64,000 nucleotides of DNA from Muribaculaceae bacterium (GTDB taxonomy: Bacteria > Bacteroidota > Bacteroidia > Bacteroidales > Muribaculaceae). A program made the position numbers and the translations under genes. The DNA lies in assembly GCA_017409345.1 (NCBI GenBank), contig JAFQSX010000004.1, forward strand, positions 1-64,000, given 5' to 3'. The notes under the pieces were generated by a model, which worked only from the letters and a program-made list of their open reading frames with translations, did not search any database and was not told the origin of the DNA. Positions 7,316 through 21,802 of the stretch are shown piece after piece (within the stretch, counting starts at the first letter, position 1; each line of letters begins with the position of its first letter).

Positions 7316-8082
7316 GTCAATTCATTTATATTAAACACCGGACCTTCGGTGCATACACATACATTTCCTTTTACCGTATTTTCCACACAACAGAGACAAG
7401 CTCCAAGTCCACAAGCCATCATATTTTCCAACGACACCTCGCAATCAATCGATTTTGCTTTTGCAACATTTGCAATAGCTTTCATCATTGGAGCCGGACC
7501 ACAACAATATATCTTGTTTATATCAGTATCAAGAACCGTATTTGTTGTTACCAATCCTTTTTCACCCATAGAACCATCTTCGGTTGAAACATACACCTCC
7601 CCAATCTTTTCAAATTCGGCAAGTTGAAGCACATCTTTTGCCGAACGTGCTCCGATTAAGAATTTTGGCATATAACCCTCCTCTTTTAATCTTTTTCCCC
7701 AATACAACATTGGAGCAACGCCAACACCGCCACCGGCTAAAAGCACCAAATCAGATTGATTTTTAGGCATAGAGAATGAATTACCCAAAGGCAACACCAC
7801 ATTTAACAAATCACCAGGCTTTAATGCCATTAATGCACGTGTTCCTTCTCCGGCATTTCTCACTAATAACCATAGATGATTATTTTCCCTATCTACATTA
7901 TTAATTGAGATAGGACGACGCAAAAATGTGGTTTTAGAGCCATCTACTGCCACCTGAACAAATTGTCCAGGCTTCATTTCAGGCAAAATAGAGCCATCGG
8001 AGGTTGTCAAGATGAGCAATGTATATAGCTCATGAATCCTCCTATTCTCCACAATTGTTAAGTCTAATATATATTTCTTCAT
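7309..8082 (-). CDS. pyrK: Dihydroorotate dehydrogenase B, electron transfer subunit
   Basis: A 257-aa ferredoxin-reductase-like protein. The FAD-binding motif RRPISI is at 55-60, the NAD-binding Gly-rich segment [11 protein letters not shown] at 114-124, and the C-terminal 2Fe-2S ligands are C224, C229, C232 and C244 (C-x4-C-x2-C-x11-C). It passes electrons from PyrD to NAD+. It overlaps pyrD, and 20 bp separate it from the secreted-protein gene upstream, so all three may share a transcript. Confidence 0.96.
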
Positions 8083-8102
8083 AACTTATGTATATTATGT
8101 AT

Positions 8103-8867
8103 TTAATCAAGTAATTTAATGTTCCATCCGTTCACTACCTCAAACTCATTTTCATATCTTTTACGCTCGAAGTATGTTGCAATTGCCCAACCATTCTCAC
8201 TATCAATAATTTGCATAAAATTATCAAATACAGGGATAGGGGATTGGTCAATATTTTGATAAGTAGTGGTAGTATTTATCGTCACAAGCTCATATTCTCC
8301 AGTCTGCTCAAAATCACGAGTAGCCATCATCTTTGACTCCGAAACAATTTCAGATGAATATCCCCAATTCGAGCCATCTTCTTTTGAGTTCCCACAATAT
8401 AGGTTATTTAATTTTAGCCTTTTTCCATTAAACGACAATAGAGAAACAAATGGAAATAACGCATCCGAAGTCTTTTCGACATCATTATTTCGCCAATCCA
8501 AATATGAATCCCAATTCAAAACCTTTATAAGTGCCCCATTACGATTTGTCATAAGTCGTAATGGTTTCTCATCTAAAACTATTGAATCATTAATCAACGG
8601 TAATTTCTCTCTCTCATAACATAACGAGAATAAATGTTCGGTAGAATCATCAACTTCGATAGTAAAATCTCGGCTAAAACCACCATGTTTAATCGTATCA
8701 CCATTTTTTACCTCATATTGAAATTCCGAATATCGGAATAAATGCCGTTCATGCTTATTCCATTTTGCCAATACGATAATGGTACTATCATCAAGAATAG
8801 CACATTGTGCATTATTATATAATAACAACACTATAAATAGAACAATTATTATCGGATAGCGAACCAT
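8103..8867 (-). CDS. Hypothetical secreted protein
   Basis: A 254-aa protein with a clear signal peptide (MVRYPIIIVLFIVLLLYNNAQCA, about residues 1-23). The mature part is polar, rich in beta-type sequence with many acidic and aromatic residues; I recognise no family. It lies 20 bp upstream of pyrK on the same strand and has its own -7 box at 8885-8892, so it may head the pyrK-pyrD transcript. Confidence 0.65.
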   Translation of the reverse strand: MVRYPIIIVLFIVLLLYNNAQCAILDDSTIIVLAKWNKHERHLFRYSEFQYEVKNGDTIKHGGFSRDFTIEVDDSTEHLFSLCYEREKLPLINDSIVLDEKPLRLMTNRNGALIKVLNWDSYLDWRNNDVEKTSDALFPFVSLLSFNGKRLKLNNLYCGNSKEDGSNWGYSSEIVSESKMMATRDFEQTGEYELVTINTTTTYQNIDQSPIPVFDNFMQIIDSENGWAIATYFERKRYENEFEVVNGWNIKLLD

Positions 8868-8884
8868 AATAACTAAAATTATTA

Positions 8885-8892
8885 CAAAGATA
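8885..8892 (-). promoter_or_regulatory. -7 promoter box for the 8103-8867 / pyrK / pyrD run
   Basis: Minus-strand TATCTTTG matches TAnnTTTG and lies 18 bp before the ATG. No TTTG is seen at -33. Confidence 0.5.
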
Positions 8893-8957
8893 GTTTTTAT
8901 AATCCATAAATCAATAAAGAGATTTGATTATTTTAGTAACATATAGTTGTAAATAAA

Positions 8958-8991
8958 AATAAGTTGTTCTGTACAATCAAAACAACTTATT
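8958..8991 (-). terminator. Intrinsic terminator of the XRE regulator gene
   Basis: Perfect 11-bp inverted repeat (AATAAGTTGTT / AACAACTTATT, 12-nt loop) followed on the minus strand by a T-rich run. It begins about 40 bp after the regulator stop codon. Confidence 0.7.
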
Positions 8992-9032
8992 ATAAGCAAA
9001 ATATTCGGTTATATAATCACTATTGATTATTA

Positions 9033-9563
9033 TCATTTTCTCATCTGTGGAACAAATATTTCATAACTATTATCATTATAAAATACCCTTATTTCTATTA
9101 CCTTTTTAGCATTTGATTTGACTGAAATTTGATCTGTTTGAGCAATAACATTAGACATAGATGGATTGGTCTCTTTATATTCCAGTTTTTGAACACTATT
9201 TACCGACTTAGATAACATGCTATTTTGATCCTCTATCGGATTATCAAAATCAAGTTCTTGCATAATCGACTCGTTTTTCACATCCTCTTTAGTTCCAAAA
9301 TCAATACTGTCTCCAATTTTAGGCTCTGACATTGTTATTTTTGAATCAACTAACATGCTTCCCTCTCCAAACATCAACCACATTACAGACAATTGAGGAT
9401 ATGCCTCATGAATCTTACTAATAAGTTCATCACTGATCTTTTTATTTCTTCCATTAAGTATTTGTGATATAGTAGGACGAGGGATACGACATGTATCTGC
9501 AAATTGAGAATTTGCAATATTTAATGCCATCATGAACTGTTTTAAGCGAGTTACAATATCCAT
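9033..9563 (-). CDS. XRE-family helix-turn-helix regulator
   Basis: A 176-aa protein with an N-terminal lambda-repressor-like HTH (about residues 5-58; SQFADTCRIPRPTISQILNG is the helix-turn-helix core) followed by WLMFGEG (62-68), a motif seen in many phage-like Bacteroidota XRE proteins. The middle is polar and probably disordered. The C-terminal IEIRVFYNDNSYEIFVP segment looks like a small beta element. No LexA-type protease residues are visible. It has a complete promoter (TTTG-N20-TACATTTG) and its own terminator, so it is a single-gene unit. Its target is unknown; the adjacent gene-free region and restriction-like cassette are candidates by position only. Confidence 0.85.
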   Translation of the reverse strand: MDIVTRLKQFMMALNIANSQFADTCRIPRPTISQILNGRNKKISDELISKIHEAYPQLSVMWLMFGEGSMLVDSKITMSEPKIGDSIDFGTKEDVKNESIMQELDFDNPIEDQNSMLSKSVNSVQKLEYKETNPSMSNVIAQTDQISVKSNAKKVIEIRVFYNDNSYEIFVPQMRK

Positions 9564-9594
9564 TTTAATTTGATTTTGTAATTATTTAGATATG

Positions 9595-9626
9595 CAAATG
9601 TAATTACTATTATTTAATTTAGCAAA
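9595..9626 (-). promoter_or_regulatory. Promoter of the XRE regulator
   Basis: On the minus strand, TTTG (9626-9623), a 20-bp spacer and TACATTTG (9602-9595): a full Bacteroidota -33/-7 promoter, with the start expected about 25 nt before the ATG. Confidence 0.7.
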
Positions 9627-9972
9627 TTTTCATTACTGAAAATCAGAATATCCACCTATTTAACTTCGTAAATCACCCAATAGAGTAGGGGGCAAACAAC
9701 TCATAAATAATTAAATAAATACTTTTATACATAACACACAACATGTTGATTTATACATAATTACATCAATTAAATACCCATACACACCCGATAGTCACAC
9801 AACTCCTAATTAATTACTTTAACTTCTTATGTATAACTCACTCAAAATATATCACTTACATACTAATGTAAAAATACCTTAATGGTAAAAATTGGACTAT
9901 GTAAACCGTTTTTGTGAGTAAATTACCATTTCTACATCGTAAAACCAGTGATTAAAGTATGAGATTCTTGAT

Positions 9973-9980
9973 TACTTTTG
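9973..9980 (+). promoter_or_regulatory. -7 promoter box for the small RNA candidate
   Basis: TACTTTTG followed by C matches TAnnTTTG. No protein gene lies downstream on this strand for kilobases; three hairpins and a T-rich run follow within about 125 bp. Confidence 0.45.
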
Positions 9981-9985
9981 CACAT

Positions 9986-10105
9986 CCATTTACATTTACA
10001 CTACAAAATTAGATATAACGCAAGATTACAGATGTAATTTAAACAGTCTCATCTGCGAATTAAAATTGTTTGCAATTAGAAACTCGTCTCCAGTTTCTTA
10101 TTTTT
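9986..10105 (+). ncRNA. Candidate small RNA (about 120 nt)
   Basis: Three consecutive hairpins follow the -7 box: ATTAC-agat-GTAAT (10025-10038), AATTG-tttg-CAATT (10064-10077) and AGAAACT-cgtctcc-AGTTTCT (10078-10098). The last is followed by TATTTTT, giving a terminator shape. There is no ORF of note. The ends are inferred from the promoter box and T-run; no known RNA family is recognised. Confidence 0.4.
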
Positions 10106-10221
10106 CCAGGTATAGTATCAATTCGTTTTAAATATTAAAATCTAATCGCACTAATTATGCCTCAAATAACTTATTAATACACATTAAATCACTCTGTAGA
10201 AATTCATTACTAATAGATAAT

Positions 10222-10265
10222 TTCAAATTTATCTGATTATAAACATTTCATCAGATAAATTTGAA
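10222..10265. repeat. Perfect 16-bp inverted repeat, 12-nt spacer
   Basis: Arms TTCAAATTTATCTGAT (10222-10237) and its exact complement (10250-10265). Neither flank has a T-run, so it is not an obvious terminator. A protein-binding palindrome or a mobile-element end-pair are possible; the sequence does not decide. Confidence 0.55.
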
Positions 10266-10487
10266 TATCATTCTATGGTAATATAAAAAATGGTAAATAT
10301 ATTATATATGATGTAATATATTATAACTTCAAAAAGTATAAAAATATCCATTATAGTTTCTGAAAAACCAATGAAATATTATTTTTACTTTCATCCTCGA
10401 TAGGGGTAATTATTTATTGCTTTAAAAACCTTATTTAACATAATATATATTATGAGCAAAAAGTCTTTCAATTTTCACTATACTCAT

Positions 10488-10524
10488 AAATTCAATAATT
10501 CCTTAGGGAGGAATTATTGAATTT
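10488..10524. terminator. Perfect 15-bp hairpin, terminator-like
   Basis: AAATTCAATAATTCC, loop TTAGGGA, exact complement. It is followed by TTAATT on the plus strand and preceded by TTTATG-type sequence on the minus side, so the T-run is weak. No gene obviously ends here. Confidence 0.45.
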
Positions 10525-10625
10525 TTAATTATCCTTGGAAATACAATTTGTTTCTTTTAGAATAATATAATGTCAAAGATACAACTCAATTTGTAAGATT
10601 GTAAGCGATAATGAAACTATCAAAA

Positions 10626-10665
10626 AAATATTGAGTAGGATTATTTTTATACCTACTCAATATTT
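10626..10665 (-). terminator. Intrinsic terminator of the restriction-like operon
   Basis: Perfect 14-bp stem (AAATATTGAGTAGG / CCTACTCAATATTT, 12-nt loop) with a run of Ts on the minus strand, 22 bp after the helicase stop codon. Confidence 0.8.
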
Positions 10666-10687
10666 ATATTTTACGAATTATCTTTAA

Positions 10688-13189
10688 TTACAAATTATTC
10701 CCTTGATATTCATCGTTAGAAATAACGGTATCATACAATCCCACTGCGTCACCTTCATGTCGATTTATACCGATGTACTCAAGACTGGCATCTTCATATC
10801 GTTTGAATTTATAAATAGCATCATTCATCAATGCGCTATTGAACACATTTAGCGACACAAGCAAATCAAAATCACGAACCGACAATCCCGTCACTTTTTT
10901 AAATAACCCCGGCTCAAGTTGAGTTATCACATCTTTAAGACATCGTTCTCGATAATCAGTAAGATACATAAACACCGGCACACGAGTTGCAAACTTGATA
11001 AGTTTCTCTTGAATTTTCTTACGCAACGACTTATATTCTTTTTCCTCTTGCGTCAATTCTTTTTTCTCCTCTCGAGTTAAGTCTCGCTCATTGGCTTCCT
11101 TTTTTGCATTCTTTACTGCTTCCGATTTATTGATTATCGTTTCTATATCTTGATTTAGAGATCTAAATCCTTCAATACTCATCAATGCTCGCATAGCATC
11201 ATCGTTTGCCATTAATCGTTTTAAAGTGTCATTATCTACATTTACCAATAAAGCGCTCTCCCATCTCCGAGCCAATAATGTCGCACTCGTTCCACTCATC
11301 GCAATATCAAGAATTCCGGCGGCATCAATTTGCTTCATGTAACTACCGTCATAAGCAAGTACCGGGAGGAAATTTATAAATTCTTCAACCTTCTTTTCAG
11401 GATTCGATTCTTCTACATTCAATCGACAACTATAATCAGCAATCAATCGTAATGCTCGATTGGGTGCAAAGTCAAACACATAACACACCTCCTTCATCAC
11501 ATCTTGACGATGCGGATTATCTTCATCAGGATTATTTACCACCCATGGCGTTTGTACCCTAAATGCCGCTTGGAAATATGTTTCGGGACTTGAAATATTG
11601 GTAAGCATAAAAATTCCACTCCATGGTTTTACCGATACCCCTGTTGTTAATTTCCCACATGACAAGGTTATCGTTTTTGTTTCGAGAGGATTATTCATCG
11701 CATTAAGTACCGGAGGTAATGCATCAACGCCAATCCCTGCCGATGTGCCTGCTGCTACAATTACTTTATAATCATGATAGAATGTATTTTGTCGTTCGGC
11801 AAGTAAATTTCGCATTGCAAAACATGATGAAACTGAGGGCATAAACCAAAATGTATGAGTTAACGAACGTAACAACGGAGCATGCGAAAATGGCATCGGT
11901 GGTCGCTCGCTTCTCAATTGTAAATCACTGACAACCATTTCATTATATGAGCCACGAATAAAATTCAACCACTTTTGAACTTCATCTTTATTCACAAATT
12001 GAGCGTCATCACCCTCCCCCACTGTGGCAAAAAATTGTTTGAAATCAAACTCATTAAATTCGCCTTGCATTGCCACTTGACGAATGGCATCGGGCATCTG
12101 ATATGTTAGCATAACCATTTGGGGCAGTGAGCGATATGGATTATCCTCCCCTACCCACTCGTTTTTGGCACGTTGCTCATCCGAGTAAGTCCAATTATAT
12201 ATCTCTTCCTCAATAAATTCGCCCGAATTTATTGCCCTAAAAGGAGTCCCCGACAAATATAAATAAGCATTTGTAGTGATAGGCATCACCGACTCGTCAA
12301 AATATTCACGAGCCTTTCCCTCAGCAGCCTCCACTTCTCGGCGGTCTTCATTTTCAAACAATTCTTTAGCATTATCTCGCCATGCACCATAATGATATTC
12401 ATCAAGAATCACGCAATCCCAATTTGTAAGATGCACCCACTCATTACGTGGTTTTATACCTCCTGCACTATTTTTTCCAAGATAATCTTGAAAAGAACCA
12501 AAACAAACAATTGGTCGGGATTGATCGGCTGACTCTATCGACAATTCACTATTTCGTGAAATAAATTGCCAACCGGCAAAATCCACATGGCTCATCAAGT
12601 CTTCCTCCCACGCATTCTGCACAGCCGGCTTAAAGGTCAATATCAATATTCTTCGCCAACCCATCTTTTTTGCTAACTGATAAGCAGCAAATGTTTTACC
12701 AAAACGCATCTTACAATTCCACAAAAAGTGAGGTGTTTTTCCATTACTTTCTATTGGATAATTTTTAAAATATGCGGCAGTCTTCTCTACTGCAGCCTCT
12801 TGTTCGGGACGCATCGAAAATGTTGCTGTGCGACTTTCTTCATTCTCTTGGCGAGTTGTTACTGCGATGATTGCGGCTTTCACATCTTGGGCAGAACATC
12901 TAAACCACTCCCCTGCCGGATTGGCAAAGCCTCGTCGTCGCAAATATTGGTGAACTTCATAATCAAGAAAAGATGATCCATCTTGCCGCATTGCACTCTC
13001 CGATACCACTATGCGATATGGTAATGCACCGGGTCGTAATGTGGGATATTGTTGAGCCACACGAGTTGCAACATCTACACTTGTATAACCTACTTTTAAC
13101 AAACCTTGATACTGTGGATTAGTATCTTCGTAAGCATAAATCATCGGCTTTAATGCCGGACGCTCAGGGAAAAAATTTTGTTGAGCCAT
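10688..13189 (-). CDS. T5orf172/GIY-YIG-like domain fused to SF2 helicase (putative restriction subunit)
   Basis: An 833-aa protein. Residues about 16-110 resemble the T5orf172/GIY-YIG-like nuclease fold (LLKVGYTSVDVATRV, later EVHQYL and GEWFRC). An SF2 helicase core follows: RPEQ (127-130), motif I KMRFGKTF (160-167, lacking the classical GxGKT), motif II DEYH (263-266), motif III SGTP (313-316), TTGVSV (515-520) and motif VI QAAFRVQTPW (540-549). A Lys/Glu-rich helical segment (about 690-735) precedes the C-terminal domain. Such nuclease-helicase fusions are translocating restriction subunits in Type I/III-like systems. It follows the methyltransferase gene by 11 bp on the same strand and ends the operon. 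Cleavage activity and recognition site are not known. Confidence 0.82.
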   Translation of the reverse strand: MAQQNFFPERPALKPMIYAYEDTNPQYQGLLKVGYTSVDVATRVAQQYPTLRPGALPYRIVVSESAMRQDGSSFLDYEVHQYLRRRGFANPAGEWFRCSAQDVKAAIIAVTTRQENEESRTATFSMRPEQEAAVEKTAAYFKNYPIESNGKTPHFLWNCKMRFGKTFAAYQLAKKMGWRRILILTFKPAVQNAWEEDLMSHVDFAGWQFISRNSELSIESADQSRPIVCFGSFQDYLGKNSAGGIKPRNEWVHLTNWDCVILDEYHYGAWRDNAKELFENEDRREVEAAEGKAREYFDESVMPITTNAYLYLSGTPFRAINSGEFIEEEIYNWTYSDEQRAKNEWVGEDNPYRSLPQMVMLTYQMPDAIRQVAMQGEFNEFDFKQFFATVGEGDDAQFVNKDEVQKWLNFIRGSYNEMVVSDLQLRSERPPMPFSHAPLLRSLTHTFWFMPSVSSCFAMRNLLAERQNTFYHDYKVIVAAGTSAGIGVDALPPVLNAMNNPLETKTITLSCGKLTTGVSVKPWSGIFMLTNISSPETYFQAAFRVQTPWVVNNPDEDNPHRQDVMKEVCYVFDFAPNRALRLIADYSCRLNVEESNPEKKVEEFINFLPVLAYDGSYMKQIDAAGILDIAMSGTSATLLARRWESALLVNVDNDTLKRLMANDDAMRALMSIEGFRSLNQDIETIINKSEAVKNAKKEANERDLTREEKKELTQEEKEYKSLRKKIQEKLIKFATRVPVFMYLTDYRERCLKDVITQLEPGLFKKVTGLSVRDFDLLVSLNVFNSALMNDAIYKFKRYEDASLEYIGINRHEGDAVGLYDTVISNDEYQGNNL

Positions 13190-13200
13190 AGTATATAATT

Positions 13201-14745
13201 TTATTCCATTGGACGAATCATACTTTCAATAAATTTAATCTCTTCATCGGTCAAGCCATATTTTGCATATAACTCCTCATCGGTCCATGGCTTGCTAAAA
13301 TCTTGAATAGGGACAAATCTAAATACTTCTTGAGAAACTTGCATTGTTCCTCTCCCCCAATATAATAATATTTTAAAAAAATTCGTTTCTGTATATTGTA
13401 AACAATTTTGTTGATTCTCTTTATTTTCAAAAGGACCTATTACCAAAAAGGTTTCTGTGCAAATTTCATCTGGTCCCGCCTCAATTAACTTAGGAGGTGT
13501 AATTGCATCGGAGGAATATGCCTTTGATATAAATAATTTATATTTACTTATCCATTCTTGATTCTTACTTATAGAATTTCTCTTAACAAATCCGGCTAAT
13601 CGTTTTGCACCACCTTTTAGCCCTTTAACGCCCCAAATCTTCACATATCCCTCTGATTCAACATTTTTAAGATCTAATTCTGGATATCTATTTGGAGCAT
13701 TAAACAAATCTGTATTCACATTAAATGGTTTTCTTGGAGAAACGATTTCACTTAATGATTTACCTTTAGTAACTTTTTCTATTATAGATTGACGTCTATA
13801 ATCCCTAATTACAATATTAGAATATGGATTTTTTAATGGTCTAATTGTTGTAATTGGTAAACCATTAATTGGATTATATACATATTTAACATTTCCATTA
13901 TAATTTTTATCCCACAAAAAATAGCACACTCCTCCATCAATATGTAACCCAGGGAAACATTCATTTGAATCTTCAAAATCACATAAAATACGAATTCTTT
14001 TGTCTGAAATCATTTGTTCTCTAAATTGTTGCAGTCCTCTCCCTCCTACCATCCATTTTGAAGGGACAATCATCGTTAAATAATTGGGATTTAATGCTAT
14101 TGCTTGATTTATAAATTTGTTATACATAGGTATTGCTGCATCAGTACTTGCTCCACTACCATCACTTAATTGATATGGAGGATTTCCAATAATAACGTCA
14201 AATTTCATATTAAAAATTTCATTTGGGTTAAGAGTATGAATAAATTGATATGCGTGTGTTTCCATTTCATCGCCTCGGCTATATACCGATTCACTTGCTC
14301 CACAAAAACGGCATCTACCACTTTGCCATTCATGATTAGTCGGATTAAAAATTATATTTCCTTGATTATTATCAAATTCAGTACACACTGAATATTGACT
14401 ATTGGCATGTTTTGAGCAATAAAGACTGCGACGCGAAAGCATTGAGGTTAGTTCGGTTATTGCAATACCATACAATTGATTCTTAAAGATATGATTTGCA
14501 CGTTGTTGCACATCGGGCATCTCATCTGCAAGTCCAGCCATTAATCGTTTGGCAATTTCACGAAGAAACACACCGGTTTTGCTCACCGGGTCGAGAAATT
14601 TAGCCTCTTTATTACTCCACAATTCAGCAGGAAGCATGTCGAGCATTTTATTCACAATAGCCGGAGGAGTAAAAACTTCGTCATTACTAAGATTTGCGAG
14701 ACACGATAGAACATCGGGGTTGTAATTATTTGTTAGTGTATTCAT
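13201..14745 (-). CDS. Eco57I-like N6-adenine DNA methyltransferase with CxxC element
   Basis: A 514-aa protein from ATG 14745; the ORF is open to 14844, but homology to the GEVFT/DEVFTPP start region supports the later ATG, which overlaps the preceding gene by 20 bp. Motif X-like DEVFTPP is at 22-28, SAM-binding motif I LDPVSKTGVF at 51-60 and catalytic motif IV NPPY at 188-191, indicating adenine-N6 methylation. Between them lie YCSKHA (109-114) and CRFC (145-148), which could form a zinc ribbon. The C-terminal half would be the target recognition region. It is the modification partner of the downstream helicase-nuclease. Its family (NPPYQLSDG type) is widespread but little characterised. 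Confidence 0.88.
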   Translation of the reverse strand: MNTLTNNYNPDVLSCLANLSNDEVFTPPAIVNKMLDMLPAELWSNKEAKFLDPVSKTGVFLREIAKRLMAGLADEMPDVQQRANHIFKNQLYGIAITELTSMLSRRSLYCSKHANSQYSVCTEFDNNQGNIIFNPTNHEWQSGRCRFCGASESVYSRGDEMETHAYQFIHTLNPNEIFNMKFDVIIGNPPYQLSDGSGASTDAAIPMYNKFINQAIALNPNYLTMIVPSKWMVGGRGLQQFREQMISDKRIRILCDFEDSNECFPGLHIDGGVCYFLWDKNYNGNVKYVYNPINGLPITTIRPLKNPYSNIVIRDYRRQSIIEKVTKGKSLSEIVSPRKPFNVNTDLFNAPNRYPELDLKNVESEGYVKIWGVKGLKGGAKRLAGFVKRNSISKNQEWISKYKLFISKAYSSDAITPPKLIEAGPDEICTETFLVIGPFENKENQQNCLQYTETNFFKILLYWGRGTMQVSQEVFRFVPIQDFSKPWTDEELYAKYGLTDEEIKFIESMIRPME

Positions 14746-15415
14746 GGTTTGATAATTTAAGGTAGTGAGTAATAGGATATTCTCGTATAGGCGTGGGGAT
14801 AAATGCCTCATCTCCAAGATCGGAGAAAAGATTTGGCTCATCAATTGGTTGATTTTGCAATAGATTATCGAGTGTAAAATCTCTACGTTTTATATTTCCG
14901 GCTGTTACCGCCGACCACTCAGCAAATGTTATTGGAGTATCTCCATTGGGAGTTTTTAGGGTAAGAGCATCACCCCACAATATATTTGTATCAATAATGT
15001 ATTTAATCGACTTTAAAAATTCAACAGATGCCGACTTCTTAAATAATCGCATATATTCTTCCCTGAAAATCTCCAACAATCTCTCACGACATTCTTCTAC
15101 ATTATCAATCTGTATCTCAATTCCATAAATACTACCTACTGCTAGAATAGCATTAAATTCATAATCGATACGTGACCGAGAAAAATGTGTTGAAAGAATA
15201 TTGAGTTTGCGGCGAAGAATTTCGGCTAGAAAGTTTCCGTTGCCACATGCCGGCTCAAGGAAACGCGATTCGATTCGTTCGGTTTCCGATTTAACTAAAT
15301 CGAGCATAGCATTCACTTCACGCAAGGCTGTAAATACCTCACCATGCCGGGATACACGCTCACGCGACTTGATAAGGCTCTGCCCTACCAAGTCGCAATT
15401 GGATTTGTTTTCCAT
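14726..15415 (-). CDS. Motif I-only DNA methyltransferase homologue (no catalytic motif IV)
   Basis: A 229-aa protein with GEVFT (25-29), a canonical SAM-binding motif LEPACGNGNF (53-62) and GIEI (98-101), as in N6-adenine methyltransferases of restriction systems. No NPPY/DPPY motif follows, and the protein ends soon after 'ITFAEWSAVTAGNIKRRDF'. Its N-terminus resembles that of the downstream methyltransferase, so the two genes look like diverged copies of one domain. It could be a SAM-binding or regulatory partner, or a remnant; the intact frame and 20-bp overlap with the next gene favour a functional partner. A -7 box lies at 15465-15472. Confidence 0.78.
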   Translation of the reverse strand: MENKSNCDLVGQSLIKSRERVSRHGEVFTALREVNAMLDLVKSETERIESRFLEPACGNGNFLAEILRRKLNILSTHFSRSRIDYEFNAILAVGSIYGIEIQIDNVEECRERLLEIFREEYMRLFKKSASVEFLKSIKYIIDTNILWGDALTLKTPNGDTPITFAEWSAVTAGNIKRRDFTLDNLLQNQPIDEPNLFSDLGDEAFIPTPIREYPITHYLKLSNHEYTNK

Positions 15416-15464
15416 ACTGCGCTATGGTTATGCGCCGACTACTTATCTTCGGATATTTAGCAGG

Positions 15465-15472
15465 CAAAACTA
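15465..15472 (-). promoter_or_regulatory. -7 promoter box for the restriction-like operon
   Basis: Minus-strand TAGTTTTG matches TAnnTTTG, lying just after the 6S-like RNA terminator and about 50 bp before the first ATG. No -33 TTTG is seen. Confidence 0.45.
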
Positions 15473-15482
15473 AGAGCCATAG

Positions 15483-15648
15483 AAAAAGACATAAAGAAAC
15501 GTGGACTGAGTTTCTTATTCTATTCCCAGGGCCCTGAGATTGCCCACCAATACAAATAAGTCTCGTCCACGCCCATAGCGCAGACGTTAACGACTTTATC
15601 CGTGTATTGGTTTTGAAATTTCTCAGGTTTCAGGGAATACCGAATAAA
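15483..15648 (-). ncRNA. ssrS: 6S-like RNA (Bacteroidales-1 type candidate)
   Basis: Read on the minus strand, the segment folds as one long rod with internal loops, the hallmark of 6S RNA, which binds housekeeping RNA polymerase. Nested helices (plus coordinates): TATTCCC 15521-15527 with GGGAATA 15633-15639; CCTGAGA 15533-15539 with TCTCAGG 15621-15627; CCAATACA 15547-15554 with TGTATTGG 15603-15610. The stem extends outward through TTATTC/GAATAA. The minus strand ends in a terminator (AAGAAAC hairpin 15494-15516, then Ts), which fixes the orientation, and its 5' arm 'CCTGAGAAATTTC' recalls the E. coli 6S bubble. The ends are approximate. Assignment to the Bacteroidales-1/6S family is from memory of its form and needs a covariance search. 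Confidence 0.65.
15494..15516 (-). terminator. Terminator of the 6S-like RNA
   Basis: AAGAAAC / GTTTCTT stem with a 9-nt loop, followed on the minus strand by TATGTCTTTTT. It separates the RNA from the restriction-like operon promoter. Confidence 0.6.
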
Positions 15649-15819
15649 ATAGCAAACGCTGATTAATAATATGTTAAGTTAAAATACTGTCTGTTTCTTG
15701 TATTAAAAATTTATATTTAATTATTAATGATTACACAAAGATAGCATAAAAAAATTTAGAATTAAAACCGAAATGCTTCTTAATTTAATAATGTGTATTT
15801 ATTTTTCAATTTTTATTAG

Positions 15820-15827
15820 TAACTTTG
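15820..15827 (+). promoter_or_regulatory. -7 promoter box for the metal efflux operon
   Basis: TAACTTTG followed by CA matches TAnnTTTG; the predicted start is about 17 nt before the ATG at 15850. Sequence 15649-15819 otherwise holds no recognised feature. Confidence 0.55.
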
Positions 15828-15849
15828 CAATGATAGTATTATTACCATA

Positions 15850-16284
15850 ATGAAAAGAAGTTTTTCAGGCATATCGATTATTGTGATACTAATGATTGTG
15901 ATGAGTTCAATCATTCAGTTTCATCATCATGATAAAAATGGTAATATAATTTTTGCCGTTACGACTATTACTTGTAACGGGAATGTTCACAATCATTCAC
16001 ATAGCAAACACTCTAATTGTTGTGGATGCGAGCACCACCATGATCATGATTGTGGCACAGGGGAAAATTGTTCGGCCCACTTGGGTGATTATCAAGCGAC
16101 TAAACAGACAAATCTCACAATAGACGACTCCCCTACTATATTATTGTTCGCATCAATAACTGATTCCGAGATAAGGATTCTAAACAATTCGGAATTTTGC
16201 ACTTATATCACATTTGACAAAAATACTACTATTGTTGAAGGGGTTACGAGTGGACTGTCGTTACGAGCCCCCCCTATCGGCTAA
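15850..16284 (+). CDS. His/Cys-rich exported protein of the metal efflux operon
   Basis: A 144-aa protein with an N-terminal hydrophobic segment (residues about 7-23) that is a signal peptide or anchor. It has a dense His/Cys cluster (about 47-77: HNHSHSKHSNCCGCEHHHDHDC) suited to binding Cu, Zn, Co or Ni. The C-terminus ends LSLRAPP, a motif seen in small proteins before CusA/CzcA operons in Bacteroidota. It starts the operon 89 bp before the adaptor gene. A periplasmic metal sponge or metallochaperone is likely; the exact metal is not shown. Confidence 0.75.
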   Translation: MKRSFSGISIIVILMIVMSSIIQFHHHDKNGNIIFAVTTITCNGNVHNHSHSKHSNCCGCEHHHDHDCGTGENCSAHLGDYQATKQTNLTIDDSPTILLFASITDSEIRILNNSEFCTYITFDKNTTIVEGVTSGLSLRAPPIG

Positions 16285-16373
16285 ACCTTCTATCTTTCTT
16301 TTATCATTTCTGCACTAATACTCATATCTAGCAGAAATGGCTCTACATTTATTAATAACCTCAAATTCACATA

Positions 16374-17525
16374 ATGATGAAACATATTTGTCGTAGCATA
16401 GTTATATGCTCTATTGCAATCATATACATGACTGCTTGTACACCATCGGCTCAAGATGATGGATTAGGCCATCACCATCACGATCATAGTAGTCATGGAG
16501 GAAATGACCATGGCAGTGAGATTGTATTATCTGCCGAACAAGCAAAAAAATTTGGTGTATATAGTCAAATGGTTAAACCACGTGATTTTAACAACATTAT
16601 AAAAGTTTCGGGACAAATAGAATCTGCACCAAGTGACCAATCTATCGTTTCTGCAACTGCTCCCGGTATAATAAAATTCTCGTCTGGAATAGTTGAAGGG
16701 AAAAAGGTTTACAAAGGAGCAAACATAGCTCGTATATCATCAAAAAACATTGCAGGAGGAGATCCCAATGAAGGTGCTCGCATTGCAGTAGAAGCAACTA
16801 AAAGAGAACTTGATCGCCTTACTCCTCTACATGAAGATGGATTAGTAACAACTAAAGAATATAATGCAGCAAAACAAGCCTATGAAGCAGCGCGTGCTGC
16901 TTATTCCGGCTCTCCTTCGGGAGGTATTGCAAAAGCAGCAACTTCAGGGGCTATCACTCAATTATTAGTCAAAGAAGGAGAATATGTTACAGCAGGTCAA
17001 CCTATTGCAACAATTTTAGGCTCCACTCGTCTAACATTAAGAGCCGATCTTCCTGAAAAATATTTCAACTATCTTCCCACTATTACAACTGCAAGTTTTA
17101 AAGCATCATACGCAACTCAAGCAACACATCTAAATGAAGTAAATGGCAAGATGGTATCTACTCCGACAACAGCCACTGCGCAACAATCGGGTTATATACC
17201 CATTCACTTCTCGTTTGACAATAATGGGTCGGCCATACCCGGTGCTTTTGTTGAGGTATATTTAATAGGCAGCACTAAACCGAATGCAATTGTCTTACCT
17301 ATAGATGGCATTACCGAGCAACAAGGTAAACATTATGTATATGTAAAACTTGATGATGAGTGTTATGAAAAACGACTCGTCACATTGGGTAGCACTAATG
17401 GAAGCGAAGTGGAAATATTAAGTGGCTTGAGTCGAAAGGATGAGGTTGTAACAAAAGGTGCTGTTATTGTAAAACTTGCAGAATCAAGTGGCACAGTTCC
17501 AGAAGGTCATAGTCATAATCATTAA
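16374..17525 (+). CDS. RND efflux periplasmic adaptor lipoprotein (CusB/CzcB-like)
   Basis: A 383-aa membrane-fusion protein. The signal sequence ends in a lipobox (YMTAC, C22), so it is probably anchored in the inner membrane. A His-rich stretch (33-46) follows, then a barrel-sandwich half (about 70-105), an alpha-hairpin (RIAVEATKRELDRLTPLHEDGLVTTKEY), the second lipoyl half (SGAITQLLVKEGEYV) and a beta-barrel. It links the pump to the outer-membrane channel. ATG 16377 is an equal start choice. It ends 12 bp before the pump gene, and its C-terminus is again His-rich (GHSHNH). Confidence 0.92.
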   Translation: MMKHICRSIVICSIAIIYMTACTPSAQDDGLGHHHHDHSSHGGNDHGSEIVLSAEQAKKFGVYSQMVKPRDFNNIIKVSGQIESAPSDQSIVSATAPGIIKFSSGIVEGKKVYKGANIARISSKNIAGGDPNEGARIAVEATKRELDRLTPLHEDGLVTTKEYNAAKQAYEAARAAYSGSPSGGIAKAATSGAITQLLVKEGEYVTAGQPIATILGSTRLTLRADLPEKYFNYLPTITTASFKASYATQATHLNEVNGKMVSTPTTATAQQSGYIPIHFSFDNNGSAIPGAFVEVYLIGSTKPNAIVLPIDGITEQQGKHYVYVKLDDECYEKRLVTLGSTNGSEVEILSGLSRKDEVVTKGAVIVKLAESSGTVPEGHSHNH

Positions 17526-17537
17526 AACTCTAGGCCT

Positions 17538-20500
17538 ATGTTGAACAAAATTATCGGATTTTCATTAAACAACCGTCTGACAATTTTAATATTGTCGTTA
17601 GTTATGATGGTTGCCGGTACTGTGGTTCTATTTCGTACCGAAGTTGATATTTTCCCCGATCTTAATGCACCAACTGTCGTAGTAATGACAGAGGCACCCG
17701 GTTTTGCCCCTGAAGAAGTGGAAAAACTTGTCTCTTTCCCTATTGAAACTGCGGTAAATGGTGCTACAGATGTGCGTCGAGTGCGTTCATCATCAGCGAC
17801 TGGGTTCTCAATCGTATGGGTTGAGTTTGATTGGGGAACAGATGTTTATACTGCTCGACAAATCGTATCGGAAAAATTATCTACAATCAACGACCAACTC
17901 CCCCCAGGTGTGGAAACGCCTACCCTAGGCCCACAATCGTCAATCCTTGGCGAAATTATGATTATAGGACTTACAGCCGATACCACATCAATGAGTGATA
18001 TCCGTTCACTTGCCGACCGAGTAATACGCCCTCGCTTACTTTCAATAGGTGGAGTTTCTCAAGTTGCAGTAATAGGAGGAGATATAAAAGAGTATCAAAT
18101 TCAAATAATGCCTGAACGTATGCGCCATTATAACATTTCATTAAGTGAGGTAATGGAAAGCGTTAATGGTATTAATAATAATGCTACCGGTGGAGTACTT
18201 TACGAATACGGAAATGAATATATCATAAAAGGAGACGTAAACACTACATCAATAGATGCCCTAGGAAAAGCAGTCGTTCGTAGTGATGAAAATGGAACTA
18301 TATTAATTGAGGATATTGCAACAGTAACTATTGGCAATAAAATGCCACATTTAGGACTTGCTTCAGAACGTGCAAAATCGGCGGTTTTAATGACCGTCAC
18401 TAAACAACCTGCCGTTGGGACTATTGATCTCACTAAAAAAATAGAGGCAGAATTATCTTCTATGGGTAAAAATATGCCTAAAGACATGAAGATATCTACT
18501 AACATTTTCAAACAAAGTGATTTTATTGACAATTCAATTAGTAATCTACAACAATCACTAATTGAGGGCTCTATTTTTGTTGTTATTGTACTATTCTTTT
18601 TCTTAATGAATCTGCGCACAACACTAATATCTCTTGTAGCGTTACCTCTATCGGTTATAATTGCAGTAATAGTCCTCCACTTTTTGGGCTTTACCATCAA
18701 TACGATGAGCCTTGGAGGGATTGCCATTGCAATCGGATCTCTTGTTGATGACGCAATTGTTGATGTTGAAAATGTTTATAAACGATTACGTGAGAATAAG
18801 GCTCTTCCTGAATCTGAAAGAAAATCTATAATTTCAGTAGTATATGAGGCATCAAAGGAAGTACGCATGCCAATATTAAACTCTACATTAATTATTATAG
18901 CAAGTTTCTTGCCGTTATTCTTCTTAAGTGGAATTGAAGGCAGAATGCTTATTCCTCTTGGAATATCATTTATTGTGGCACTAATTGCTTCTACCATTGT
19001 GGCCTTAACTCTAACTCCGGTGTTATGTAGTTATCTTTTAATTTCTAAAAAATCGACAAACAAACTAGACAAAGAGCCTTGGATTACACAAAAATTGAAG
19101 AGTGGATATAAAAAAGGTCTCGCATGGAATATCAATCACAAATCAATATTACTAGGAGTTGTTGGCTCTTTATTTGTAATCGCAATAGCATTATTCTTTA
19201 CATTAGGACGCAGTTTCTTACCATCTTTTAATGAAGGTTCCTTTACTGTAAATGTCAGCACACTTCCCGGCATTGCATTGGATGAAAGCGACAAAATAGG
19301 TCGCGAAGCCGAAAAGATTCTACTTTCAATACCTGAGGTTCAAACTGTTGCTAGAAAAACAGGACGAGCCGAACTTGATGAACATTCTTTTGGAGTTAAT
19401 TCATCAGAAATAGAAGCACCATACATCCTTTCTAATCGTACTCGTGGAGAAGTTGTAAAAGAGGTTAGAGAAAAATTAGCCACTATCCCCGGAGCAAATA
19501 TTGAAATTGGCCAACCGATTTCACACCGAATTGATGCAATGTTATCCGGTACTGAATCTCAAATTGCTATTAAATTATTTGGCGATGATTTAAATCATCT
19601 ATATTCATTAGGCACTCAAATAAAACAAGCGATTTCTGACATTGAAGGCATTGTAGATGTTAACATAGAGCAACAAATTGAACGGCCACAACTTGACATA
19701 CGCCCTAGACGAGATCTTTTGGCAAAATATGGCATTACGATTAATCAATTTACTCAATTTGTAAATGTTGCACTTGGTGGAGAGGTCGTATCACAAGTTT
19801 ATGAACAAGGTTTGCCTTTTGATTTAACGGTACGTCTTGATGATGAACATCGCAACTCTATTGACAAAATTTCAAATTTAATGATTGATAGTAATCAAGG
19901 AAAAATCCCATTGAGTTATGTCGCTGATATCATATCAACAAGTGGTCCAAATACAATTAACCGAGAAAATGTAAATCGCCGACTAATTATATCGGCAAAT
20001 GTTGCCGATAGAGATTTACGTGGCGCCGTAAATGAGATTCAGCAAAATATAGAAGAATCTATAAAATTACCCGAAAACTACTATATAATATATGGTGGCC
20101 AATTTGAAAGTGAAGCCGAAGCATCGCGCACTCTTGCTCTCACTTCAATAGGTGCTTTAATGATAATTTTTATGCTACTCTACCAAGAATTTAAAAACAT
20201 AAAACACTCTCTTATCATTCTTATTAATATGCCATTGGCAATGATTGGTGGTGTCATTATCTTAAAATGCACCTCGGGCGAACTTAACATTCCTGCCATT
20301 ATTGGTTTTATTTCATTATTAGGGATTACCACTCGCAATGGGATGTTATTAATATCTCATTACAATACCCTTAAAGAATCTGGACATGGACTAATTGATC
20401 GTATAATGATAGGTTCAGCCGATCGACTAAACCCAATTATTATGACTGCATTAACTTCGGCTCTTGCCCTAATTCCATTAGCATTAAGAGGTGGTGAACC

Positions 20501-20624
20501 GGGAAATGAAATCCAATCACCAATGGCAATTGTTATTTTAGGAGGTCTGCTATCTTCTACAATACTTAATATATTTGTAGTTCCGGCTATTTATTACATA
20601 ATTTCAAAGAAAAACGAAAAATGA
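17538..20624 (+). CDS. RND heavy-metal efflux permease (CusA/CzcA family)
   Basis: A 1028-aa inner-membrane proton/metal antiporter of the usual length: TM1 at the N-terminus, a large periplasmic loop, a six-helix block (about 335-500), a second loop and the last helix block (about 850-1020). The charged TM4 motif LVDDAIVDVENV (about 402-413) identifies the HME-RND branch. Metal specificity is not clear: the motif is neither the classical CzcA nor the CusA form. With the adaptor before it and TolC-like gene overlapping its stop by 4 bp, it forms a full tripartite pump. Confidence 0.95.
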   Translation: MLNKIIGFSLNNRLTILILSLVMMVAGTVVLFRTEVDIFPDLNAPTVVVMTEAPGFAPEEVEKLVSFPIETAVNGATDVRRVRSSSATGFSIVWVEFDWGTDVYTARQIVSEKLSTINDQLPPGVETPTLGPQSSILGEIMIIGLTADTTSMSDIRSLADRVIRPRLLSIGGVSQVAVIGGDIKEYQIQIMPERMRHYNISLSEVMESVNGINNNATGGVLYEYGNEYIIKGDVNTTSIDALGKAVVRSDENGTILIEDIATVTIGNKMPHLGLASERAKSAVLMTVTKQPAVGTIDLTKKIEAELSSMGKNMPKDMKISTNIFKQSDFIDNSISNLQQSLIEGSIFVVIVLFFFLMNLRTTLISLVALPLSVIIAVIVLHFLGFTINTMSLGGIAIAIGSLVDDAIVDVENVYKRLRENKALPESERKSIISVVYEASKEVRMPILNSTLIIIASFLPLFFLSGIEGRMLIPLGISFIVALIASTIVALTLTPVLCSYLLISKKSTNKLDKEPWITQKLKSGYKKGLAWNINHKSILLGVVGSLFVIAIALFFTLGRSFLPSFNEGSFTVNVSTLPGIALDESDKIGREAEKILLSIPEVQTVARKTGRAELDEHSFGVNSSEIEAPYILSNRTRGEVVKEVREKLATIPGANIEIGQPISHRIDAMLSGTESQIAIKLFGDDLNHLYSLGTQIKQAISDIEGIVDVNIEQQIERPQLDIRPRRDLLAKYGITINQFTQFVNVALGGEVVSQVYEQGLPFDLTVRLDDEHRNSIDKISNLMIDSNQGKIPLSYVADIISTSGPNTINRENVNRRLIISANVADRDLRGAVNEIQQNIEESIKLPENYYIIYGGQFESEAEASRTLALTSIGALMIIFMLLYQEFKNIKHSLIILINMPLAMIGGVIILKCTSGELNIPAIIGFISLLGITTRNGMLLISHYNTLKESGHGLIDRIMIGSADRLNPIIMTALTSALALIPLALRGGEPGNEIQSPMAIVILGGLLSSTILNIFVVPAIYYIISKKNEK

Positions 20625-21802
20625 GACATCTAATCATTTCAATACTCTGTATAACGACAAGTCTGTTCTCTTATGCAATGACTTTTAATGAGATCTTGCA
20701 TCATGTTGCATCAAACAATCCTTCTCTTGCCGTTTCTATCGCTCAAGGTGATGCATATATTATATCAATGAAAAGCGAAAACAATCTACCGGATCCCGAA
20801 ATTGGATTTGAACACAAATGGGGTAAAGAAGGGACTAAATGGGGGGTCGGAGTATCTCAAGTATTTGAATGGCCAGGTGTATATTCCTCTAGAAAAAAGG
20901 CAATTGACAATGCTTCACTTGCCATAGAATGGTTAAATAAAGCAAATTACCTAGAGAAACTTGTTGAAATTAAACTATTGTTAATTGATATTATTAATAT
21001 TCGCAAACAATTAACTTTAGTAAAACAACTTGACCAACAAATGGATTCTCTTATTTCTAAATATGAAAAAGGGAAAAGTCTAGGAGAAGTTTCCATCCTT
21101 GATATCAATAAATTAAATATTGAAAAAATATCTTTATCTCGCCAAATTAAATCTCTAAATAATCAATATTTAGTTCTTGAATCAAACTTACTCAAAGAAA
21201 ATGGAGGAAATGATATATCCCCTATTCTAGCCTCATTAAATAACTATCCTGATGAAGTTATTCTCTCCGAGGATAAATATGAACAATTATTGAAAGAATA
21301 TGACCCACAAATCAAGCAATATTCACTGATGGCTAGAACTCAAGAGTTGAATGCACAAAGTGCTAAACTGAGCAAATTACCCGGTTTTTCATTAGGATAT
21401 AAACTTGAAAATGAGTTAGGTAATTATTTCAATGGATTTTCAATAGGAGTCTCTATCCCATTATTCTCTAAAAAACATAAGGTAGAAGCCATTGCTGCCA
21501 CTCAAAAAGCAATTAATTTACAAAATAATGCGTTTGAAATAGAACGTATGACACAATTAAAAGTGCAACGCTCTAACGCAATTGCTTTATATCAAGAAAT
21601 GCTTTATTATAAACCAATATTGGAAAATCATGACAACATCAACCTCTTGAAAAAAGCATTAGATGGTGGACAAATTAGCCTTATAACTTATATTCAAGAA
21701 GTTAATTTCTTCATTGAGGCACAACAAAATTATATTGATGTGGAATACAGATATTTTCAAGCATTAGCATCACTAAACCGATATACACTTTTAGAAAAAT
21801 AA
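20621..21802 (+). CDS. TolC-family outer membrane channel (CusC/CzcC-like)
   Basis: A 393-aa protein with a signal peptide (about 1-20, ending SYA) and long amphipathic helices with Asn-Pro-rich turn sequences (VASNNPSLAVSIAQGDA; NLPDPEIGFEHKWG) typical of outer-membrane efflux proteins. It lacks an obvious lipobox. Its start overlaps the permease stop (ATGA), so it is the last gene of the four-gene efflux operon. No strong terminator follows. Confidence 0.9.
   Translation: MRHLIISILCITTSLFSYAMTFNEILHHVASNNPSLAVSIAQGDAYIISMKSENNLPDPEIGFEHKWGKEGTKWGVGVSQVFEWPGVYSSRKKAIDNASLAIEWLNKANYLEKLVEIKLLLIDIINIRKQLTLVKQLDQQMDSLISKYEKGKSLGEVSILDINKLNIEKISLSRQIKSLNNQYLVLESNLLKENGGNDISPILASLNNYPDEVILSEDKYEQLLKEYDPQIKQYSLMARTQELNAQSAKLSKLPGFSLGYKLENELGNYFNGFSIGVSIPLFSKKHKVEAIAATQKAINLQNNAFEIERMTQLKVQRSNAIALYQEMLYYKPILENHDNINLLKKALDGGQISLITYIQEVNFFIEAQQNYIDVEYRYFQALASLNRYTLLEK

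Follow-up and report, generated by a model that had tools for sequence, protein, structure and literature searches.

Organization of the three-gene locus

We analyzed a stretch of 64,000 nucleotides (hereafter the window) from a Muribaculaceae bacterium (NCBI GenBank assembly GCA_017409345.1, contig JAFQSX010000004.1, positions 1 to 64,000), focusing on three consecutive genes, here called A, B, and C, that probably encode a restriction-modification system of the DrdVI family. As the initial annotation of this DNA had reported, all three lie on the minus strand, with a 20-bp overlap between A and B and an 11-bp gap between B and C. Gene A (14726..15415) encodes a 229-amino-acid protein resembling the small methylase subunit M1.DrdVI, gene B (13201..14745) a 514-amino-acid protein of the Eco57I family (PF07669) resembling the large methylase subunit M2.DrdVI, and gene C (10688..13189) an 833-amino-acid, DrdVI-like fusion of a GIY-YIG-like nuclease with an SF2 helicase motor. 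The start of B was placed at the ATG at 14745, which aligns with the starts of its relatives; the mechanical list of open reading frames (ORFs) runs on to a TTG at 14844.

A terminator-like hairpin with a T run lies 3′ of gene C on the minus strand (about 10664-10620; −16.9 kcal/mol, z −4.7), in agreement with the strong terminator noted previously. The single promoter box noted at the same time is less secure. The sole candidate is the sequence TATCTTTG at 15736..15743 on the minus strand, a promoter box by what we take to be the Bacteroidota −7 consensus. Sigma-70-like sites are no more common than chance (41 versus a shuffle mean of 38.7, standard deviation (SD) 6.1). The genes and domains were correctly recognized in that annotation, but it overlooked both a structured leader RNA of ~250 nt located 5′ of gene A (15416..15663, minus strand) and the missing catalytic motif in protein A.

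Protein C begins with a T5orf172 domain of the GIY-YIG superfamily (residues 18-107; 12869..13138, minus strand; E = 1.3e-8), followed by a ResIII helicase core bearing the motifs RFGKT and DEYH (residues 124-280; 12350..12820, minus strand). The latter was assigned from the alignment together with a ResIII match (E = 1.4e-4) that falls just below the curated cut-off (22.2 versus 22.5 bits). An alignment of 12 C proteins shows little or no variation at IYA, KxGxT, R43, E94-W95, RFGKT, DEYH, SGTPF, and QAxFRVQ. Hence the fusion of a GIY-YIG-like domain with an SF2 helicase, and the nuclease similarity at the N terminus that had been set as a test of it, are both borne out, and we infer from these domain families that C would cleave and translocate DNA. 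Three C homologues (L034, L036, and L037) have ~130 extra C-terminal residues ending in an HKxFGxGxV-like domain, which we presume to be reminiscent of the UvrD/PcrA C-terminal domain.

A probable split methylase of the DrdVI family

Proteins A and B are related to each other over an N-terminal stretch (34% identity over 79 residues), and the characteristic methylase motifs are distributed between them. Protein B matches the Eco57I methylases (E = 3.4e-36), and its catalytic motif IV, NPPY (residues 188-191; 14173..14184, minus strand), is present in 80 of 80 homologues, which upholds the earlier view of the middle gene as an NPPY adenine methylase. Its motif I is altered (L51-F60, LDPVSKTGVF; 14566..14595, minus strand), with Lys56 replacing Gly. 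The pattern DPxxKxG[VI]FLRE recurs in 80/80 homologues, as DPxxKxGVFLRE in 78 and DPxxKxGIFLRE in 2, and the canonical DPxxGxG in none. Protein A, for which a domain library search returned only methylase matches below the cut-off, carries the S-adenosylmethionine (SAM)-binding motif I (E54-F62, EPACGNGNF; 15230..15256, minus strand), found as EPxxGxGNF in 67 of 78 homologues, and an NPPY-like motif occurs in none of the 78.

The two proteins had been described as two methyltransferase homologues; both are methylase-like, but a single methylase divided between two chains is the better description, as we infer from this distribution of motifs. The notion of a split methylase is thereby sharpened, with the SAM motif in one chain, the catalytic and putative recognition parts in the other, and an invariant Lys in place of Gly, and the proposed division of labor could be checked with two point changes. 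No natural A-B fusion was found among 17 strong A matches (E < 1e-80, frames of 214-272 aa) in 296 genomes. Searches of PDB sequences with single proteins and profiles yielded no useful template, and the A2 profile matched Type I HsdM (E = 4.3e-4) and MmeI (E = 0.035). B also contains H138, C145, C148, and H170, which are invariant in 80 aligned proteins and compatible with a metal site. CxxC pairs had been noted in this protein: the one formed by C145/C148 is invariant in all 80, but C110 is nearly, not fully, invariant.

In a set of 99 genomes that includes the window's own, matches were obtained to B in 23, to C in 19, and to A in 15. Complete A-B-C sets occur at the gene level in six other genomes (G037, G008, G079, G082, G034, and G098), and partial operons lie at contig ends in G003 and G051. 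In G082 an additional gene separates A from B, and G034 has two tandem A genes ahead of B (L036:4910-6366). Scanning named genomes with the B alignment yielded at least 582 relatives among 595 candidate stretches, from which the best 80, chosen by B alone, were kept. The gene order in these 80 loci is ABC in 65, AB in 10, BC in 2, ABCC in 2, and ABCCC in 1. Joint conservation of the trio, the other test set previously, is thus seen in 65 loci plus the last three, in which C is in pieces, and A adjoins B in 78 of the 80. Judged by title, the hosts comprise Bacteroidota, Clostridia, Spirochaetes, Proteobacteria, Fibrobacter, Cloacimonadota, cyanobacteria, Acidobacteria, Verrucomicrobia, and others; plasmid records were matched 83 times by B and 79 times by C.

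One plasmid match, pDrdVI of Deinococcus wulumuqiensis NEB 479, encodes counterparts of A, B, and C, arranged as in the window. Each window protein is homologous over its length to its counterpart (M1.DrdVI, 42% identity; M2.DrdVI, 45%; DrdVI, 56%), and the adjacency and order M1-M2-R are the same. M1-2.DrdVI has been cloned in Escherichia coli ER2796, methylates GCAGCC to yield N6-methyladenine (m6A), and is filed as IIG (PMC6430315), and the fusion of a GIY-YIG nuclease with a translocase in DrdVI is already noted in the available portion of PMC4996451. Because the pDrdVI homologues share this order and M1-2.DrdVI is on published record, the window trio is, on sequence grounds, a member of the DrdVI family, a kind already described. 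The initial annotation had set the layout apart from the standard Type I, II, and III ones; that it is unclassified is not supported, DrdVI having the same three genes and the same fusion. Its proposal of a complete modification and nuclease-motor unit stands, with the methylase pair and the nuclease-helicase present in one operon. According to the accessible part of PMC10113651, MaeIV of Methanococcus aeolicus, likened here by description and not by sequence, is also a split methylase of the DrdVI family, and the cloned M1-M2.MaeIV has the single-strand m6A motif GCACY.

Several other classes were considered for the trio. As stated previously, there is no separate S subunit, the operon holding no third specificity gene, and Type I membership was rejected on this basis. 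Type III Mod proteins are of the beta class, with NPPY ahead of the SAM motif; B has the opposite order, with the position of motif I (51-60) ahead of NPPY (188-191), and Type III membership was likewise rejected. Nor do separate chains agree with the strict definition of Type IIG, in which a single chain combines the nuclease, the methylase, and one recognition domain, although DrdVI is filed as IIG.

A fused layout (class 2) was found in G076, G064, G022, G016, G037, G052, and G017, and in G020, where it is cut by a contig end; G044 has the gene order A'-C'-B'. The PADLOC model PDLC03626 ('REase_MTase_IIG'; IIG, 1359 positions) matches C with its positions 151-802 and B with its positions 863-1359, so that one model spans the same nuclease-motor and methylase parts as in the window. 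Unlike the window system, class 2 has C and B fused into a single protein of about 1320-1360 aa; its upstream partner A' is larger than A (about 325-364 aa) and has an altered motif I (EITCGEAPYL). The fused chain keeps the Lys (SKxG). At L069:507-3063, a mixed operon places a class-2 type A' (336 aa) beside B and C of the three-gene type.

Comparison with the nearest relative, G003, revealed a sharply bounded difference within B. The two B proteins have one difference in residues 1-175, are about half identical in columns 201-475, and have one difference in the last 18 columns. In the DNA, 60-nt blocks are identical at 53-60 of 60 positions from 15769 down to 14150, at 28-46 from 14149 to 13316, and at 57-59 from 13315 to 13076. 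A is 96% identical between the window and G003, and the two C ends in G003 show 98.7% protein identity (first 78 residues) and 96% DNA identity (413 nt). The divergent stretch, B residues 196-482 (13300..14160, minus strand; ~50% identical to G003, with nearly identical ends), contains the presumed target-recognition domain. Its G+C content is 30.5% versus 36.8% for B residues 1-195, and no other long segment is as poorly conserved across the family as residues 301-482 (mean majority fraction 0.50 versus 0.81 for residues 9-110). Divergence this sharp between near-identical flanks is a recent swap of the presumed target-recognition segment, and it indicates how DrdVI-like systems may change specificity.

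Proposed mechanism and competing readings

We propose that A and B together act as one N6-adenine methyltransferase, to which A would supply the canonical SAM-binding motif and B would supply NPPY and, at ~196-482, the target-recognition domain. By analogy with relatives for which this has been shown, the pair would recognize a short asymmetric site and methylate one strand. The fused layout suggests that C would dock on A-B; from an unmethylated site C would then move along DNA with ATP and cut. As a defense unit, the trio would mark the DNA of its own cell and probably cleave foreign DNA. New specificities would arise when the recognition segment of B is exchanged while A and C stay unchanged, as seen directly between two genomes. 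The ~250-nt leader RNA, which would form the start of the operon's mRNA and whose structure is indicated by covariation, probably regulates expression of the operon.

We assign this explanation as a whole, a DrdVI-family split-methylase restriction-modification system with its leader RNA, a probability of roughly 90%. Certain observations weigh against it. The reports on relatives cover methylation by M1-2 and not cleavage by C. When the DrdVI homologue of C was compared with Pfam at E 0.01, only ResIII was found and no T5orf172, and its nuclease assignment therefore rests on alignment. The exact A motif I is absent from 11 of the 78 homologues, namely three with cut starts, one of class-2 type (L069), and seven variants such as EPACGxGAF. 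No solved structure in the PDB matches the B or C profiles at E 0.01, and the host genome assembly is 75% complete.

A rather unlikely alternative is that B alone is the active methylase and A a regulatory or DNA-binding pseudo-methylase. B does have a full-length methylase arrangement with NPPY, its invariant Lys motif may be a working variant of the SAM site, and the motif of A' is altered further in the fused class. However, A is retained beside B at nearly every locus sampled and holds the sole canonical SAM motif of the three-gene class, and in the published relatives M1 and M2 were cloned together (PMC6430315 and, in its accessible part, PMC10113651).

The trio could also be a relative of the Type ISP enzymes, the same translocating machine of nuclease, motor, methylase, and target-recognition domain distributed over separate chains and equipped with another nuclease, but we consider this unlikely. 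As the consulted portions of PMC3874165 and PMC4666363 describe them, LlaGI and LlaBIII have a nuclease, an SF2 motor, a methylase, and a C-terminal recognition domain in an order shared by the fused class, and in the window too the recognition part is C-terminal of the methylase, with motif I, NPPY, and then the swapped segment. In contrast to the window trio, these enzymes are, in the same portions, single polypeptides with an Mrr nuclease. C has T5orf172 and no Mrr match, and the C, B, and fusion profiles find no Type ISP chain in the PDB, where the fusion profile finds only the RadD helicase. Type ISP membership was rejected because of the three genes and the different nuclease; working in the manner of Type ISP is plausible. 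A BREX-like or other methylation-linked defense without DNA cleavage can hardly be the explanation. Weak matches to the PglX and MADS methylases point that way, but they reach 17-19 bits against cut-offs of 500-720, the operon contains no further BREX or MADS gene, and C has a nuclease domain. Identity with BREX or MADS was therefore rejected in favor of the DrdVI-family system.

A structured leader RNA family

For the 330 nt located 5′ of gene A, the folding energy is −98 kcal/mol (z −7.2), a value reached by 0 of 100 shuffles, and the 250-nt leader gives z −8.4. This leader is 100% identical over 250 nt between the window and G003, and z falls below −5 for the 250-nt leaders of 18 of the 74 homologous operons whose upstream sequence was long enough. 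The search for leader RNAs covered this operon and its relatives apart from Deinococcus. A covariance model, R1 (146 positions, 13 sequences), identifies the family core at 15504..15648 on the minus strand (119.7 bits, this sequence having been used in building the model). At E ≤0.1, R1 matches 17 of 97 sources, of which 14 belong to the 80 genome loci, and the window, G003, and one class-2 operon are also among them; at E ≤0.001, copies are found in 38 of 61 related genomes. Searching Rfam 15 at gathering thresholds gave no match in window positions 8000-17000, nor did any match cover the leaders of 15 other sources, and the best sub-threshold match scored 23.2 bits against a threshold of 90. 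No description of the family was found in the literature, including the available text of PMC2864571 and PMC8040213, the supplementary tables of the latter (thousands of candidates) lying outside the search.

When 44 copies were aligned, 95.1% of cells were found to pair, and double-sided changes occur in 30 of 32 pairs. The covariation score is 0.833, as compared with 0.276 for shuffles (SD 0.011; 0/500) and 0.075-0.112 for slid structures, although the alignment was fitted to the R1 model, which favors the score. Paired cells include 130 G-U but 14 A-C, which indicates that the leader acts as an RNA of this strand. The hairpin might instead be a DNA feature, such as a small mobile element or recombination site, since there are several copies per genome (six in the window's genome at E ≤1, 17 in G074) and 5S rRNA is found close to two copies and a tRNA gene close to one. 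We regard this as improbable, because the excess of G-U pairs is as expected for RNA, the ORF that follows has the orientation of the leader for 42 of 44 copies, and the median pairwise identity of the copies is only 50%, unlike that of a recently spread repeat. A regulatory RNA remains the preferred reading.

In addition to the window copy, five copies were found in the same genome, G000 (C20:13245-13393, C30:7955-8095, C12:170225-170373, C1:11501-11646, and C6:133268-133445). The C20 copy (L205) lies 63 nt upstream of a BpuJI-like operon consisting of a C5 methylase, a BpuJI-like endonuclease, and a second C5 methylase. One leader family thus heads two unrelated restriction systems in the window's genome, and it precedes more restriction or defense genes elsewhere. 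A further 44 copies were sampled from R1 matches in related genomes, the downstream genes being scanned for part of them. The next ORF lies on the leader's strand for 24/24 and 18/20 of the sampled copies. As a raw count, at least six of the 44 precede restriction or defense-like genes: L202 (a class-2 system, known beforehand), L205, L214 (a IIG enzyme), L195 (an Mrr enzyme), L216 (an HSDR_N protein), and L223 (an HKD+Snf2 protein). Downstream of others are genes for helix-turn-helix proteins and for secreted or membrane proteins, lipoproteins among them. An exclusive tie to restriction was rejected, as most of the sampled copies precede other genes.

The central strand of the leader can pair with the preceding strand, giving the core fold; almost every restriction-linked copy also allows it to pair instead with the following strand. 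For 17 restriction-linked copies, pairing of the central strand with its own downstream strand averages −35.0 kcal/mol, versus −23.2 kcal/mol (SD 1.36; 0/2000 permutations) with the strands of other copies, the copies being related and partly chosen by their neighbors. The corresponding values for the 5′ strand are −30.0 versus −13.5. Weak downstream pairing was obtained for 23 other copies (−18.6 versus −15.6), and a downstream hairpin with z < −3 is present in 15/17 restriction-linked versus 6/27 other copies, the Mrr-linked L195 (z −2.0) being counted among the latter.

In the window, the leader folds at −100.4 kcal/mol unconstrained versus −90.5 kcal/mol with the core fold enforced, and under the energy model the mean unpaired probability in the 20 nt before the ATG is 0.25 in both states. 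Because the alternative folds leave the start of gene A equally accessible, the window gives no support for a switch that works simply by blocking translation. A bolder reading, at slightly less than even odds, is that these leaders form an undescribed multi-copy family of Bacteroidales (an order judged from named relatives) acting as a two-state switch with shared control of restriction systems and surface or secreted proteins. If true, a regulatory switch common to unrelated restriction systems would bear on the control of restriction genes in gut bacteria.

Not every folded leader belongs to this family, since R1 finds 12 of the 18 with z < −5 and misses six (L060, L088, L119, L129, L133, and L134). 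Of the latter, L060, L088, and L119 also fold strongly (z −7.1, −6.7, and −5.7) but have a different type of sequence. Matches to the FopS small RNA (Rfam RF04319) lie near the operons of two relatives (L130:1674-1745 and L060:2509-2575). Passenger genes are found within the A-B-C operon of some relatives (L035:7542-8597, L043:1499-2572, L078, L100, L115, and L126), several of which we take by eye to resemble DUF1016 (YhcG-like) or RhuM proteins. On a Corynebacterium crudilactis plasmid (L051:5216-11781), B and C are separated by a Tn3-type transposon, an IS3 element, and genes for aminoglycoside resistance. To the right of the operon, window positions 15850-21802 encode a DUF6769-like protein and what was judged by eye to be a CusA/CzcA-type metal efflux operon, a region that is common to the window and G003 at 82% DNA identity.

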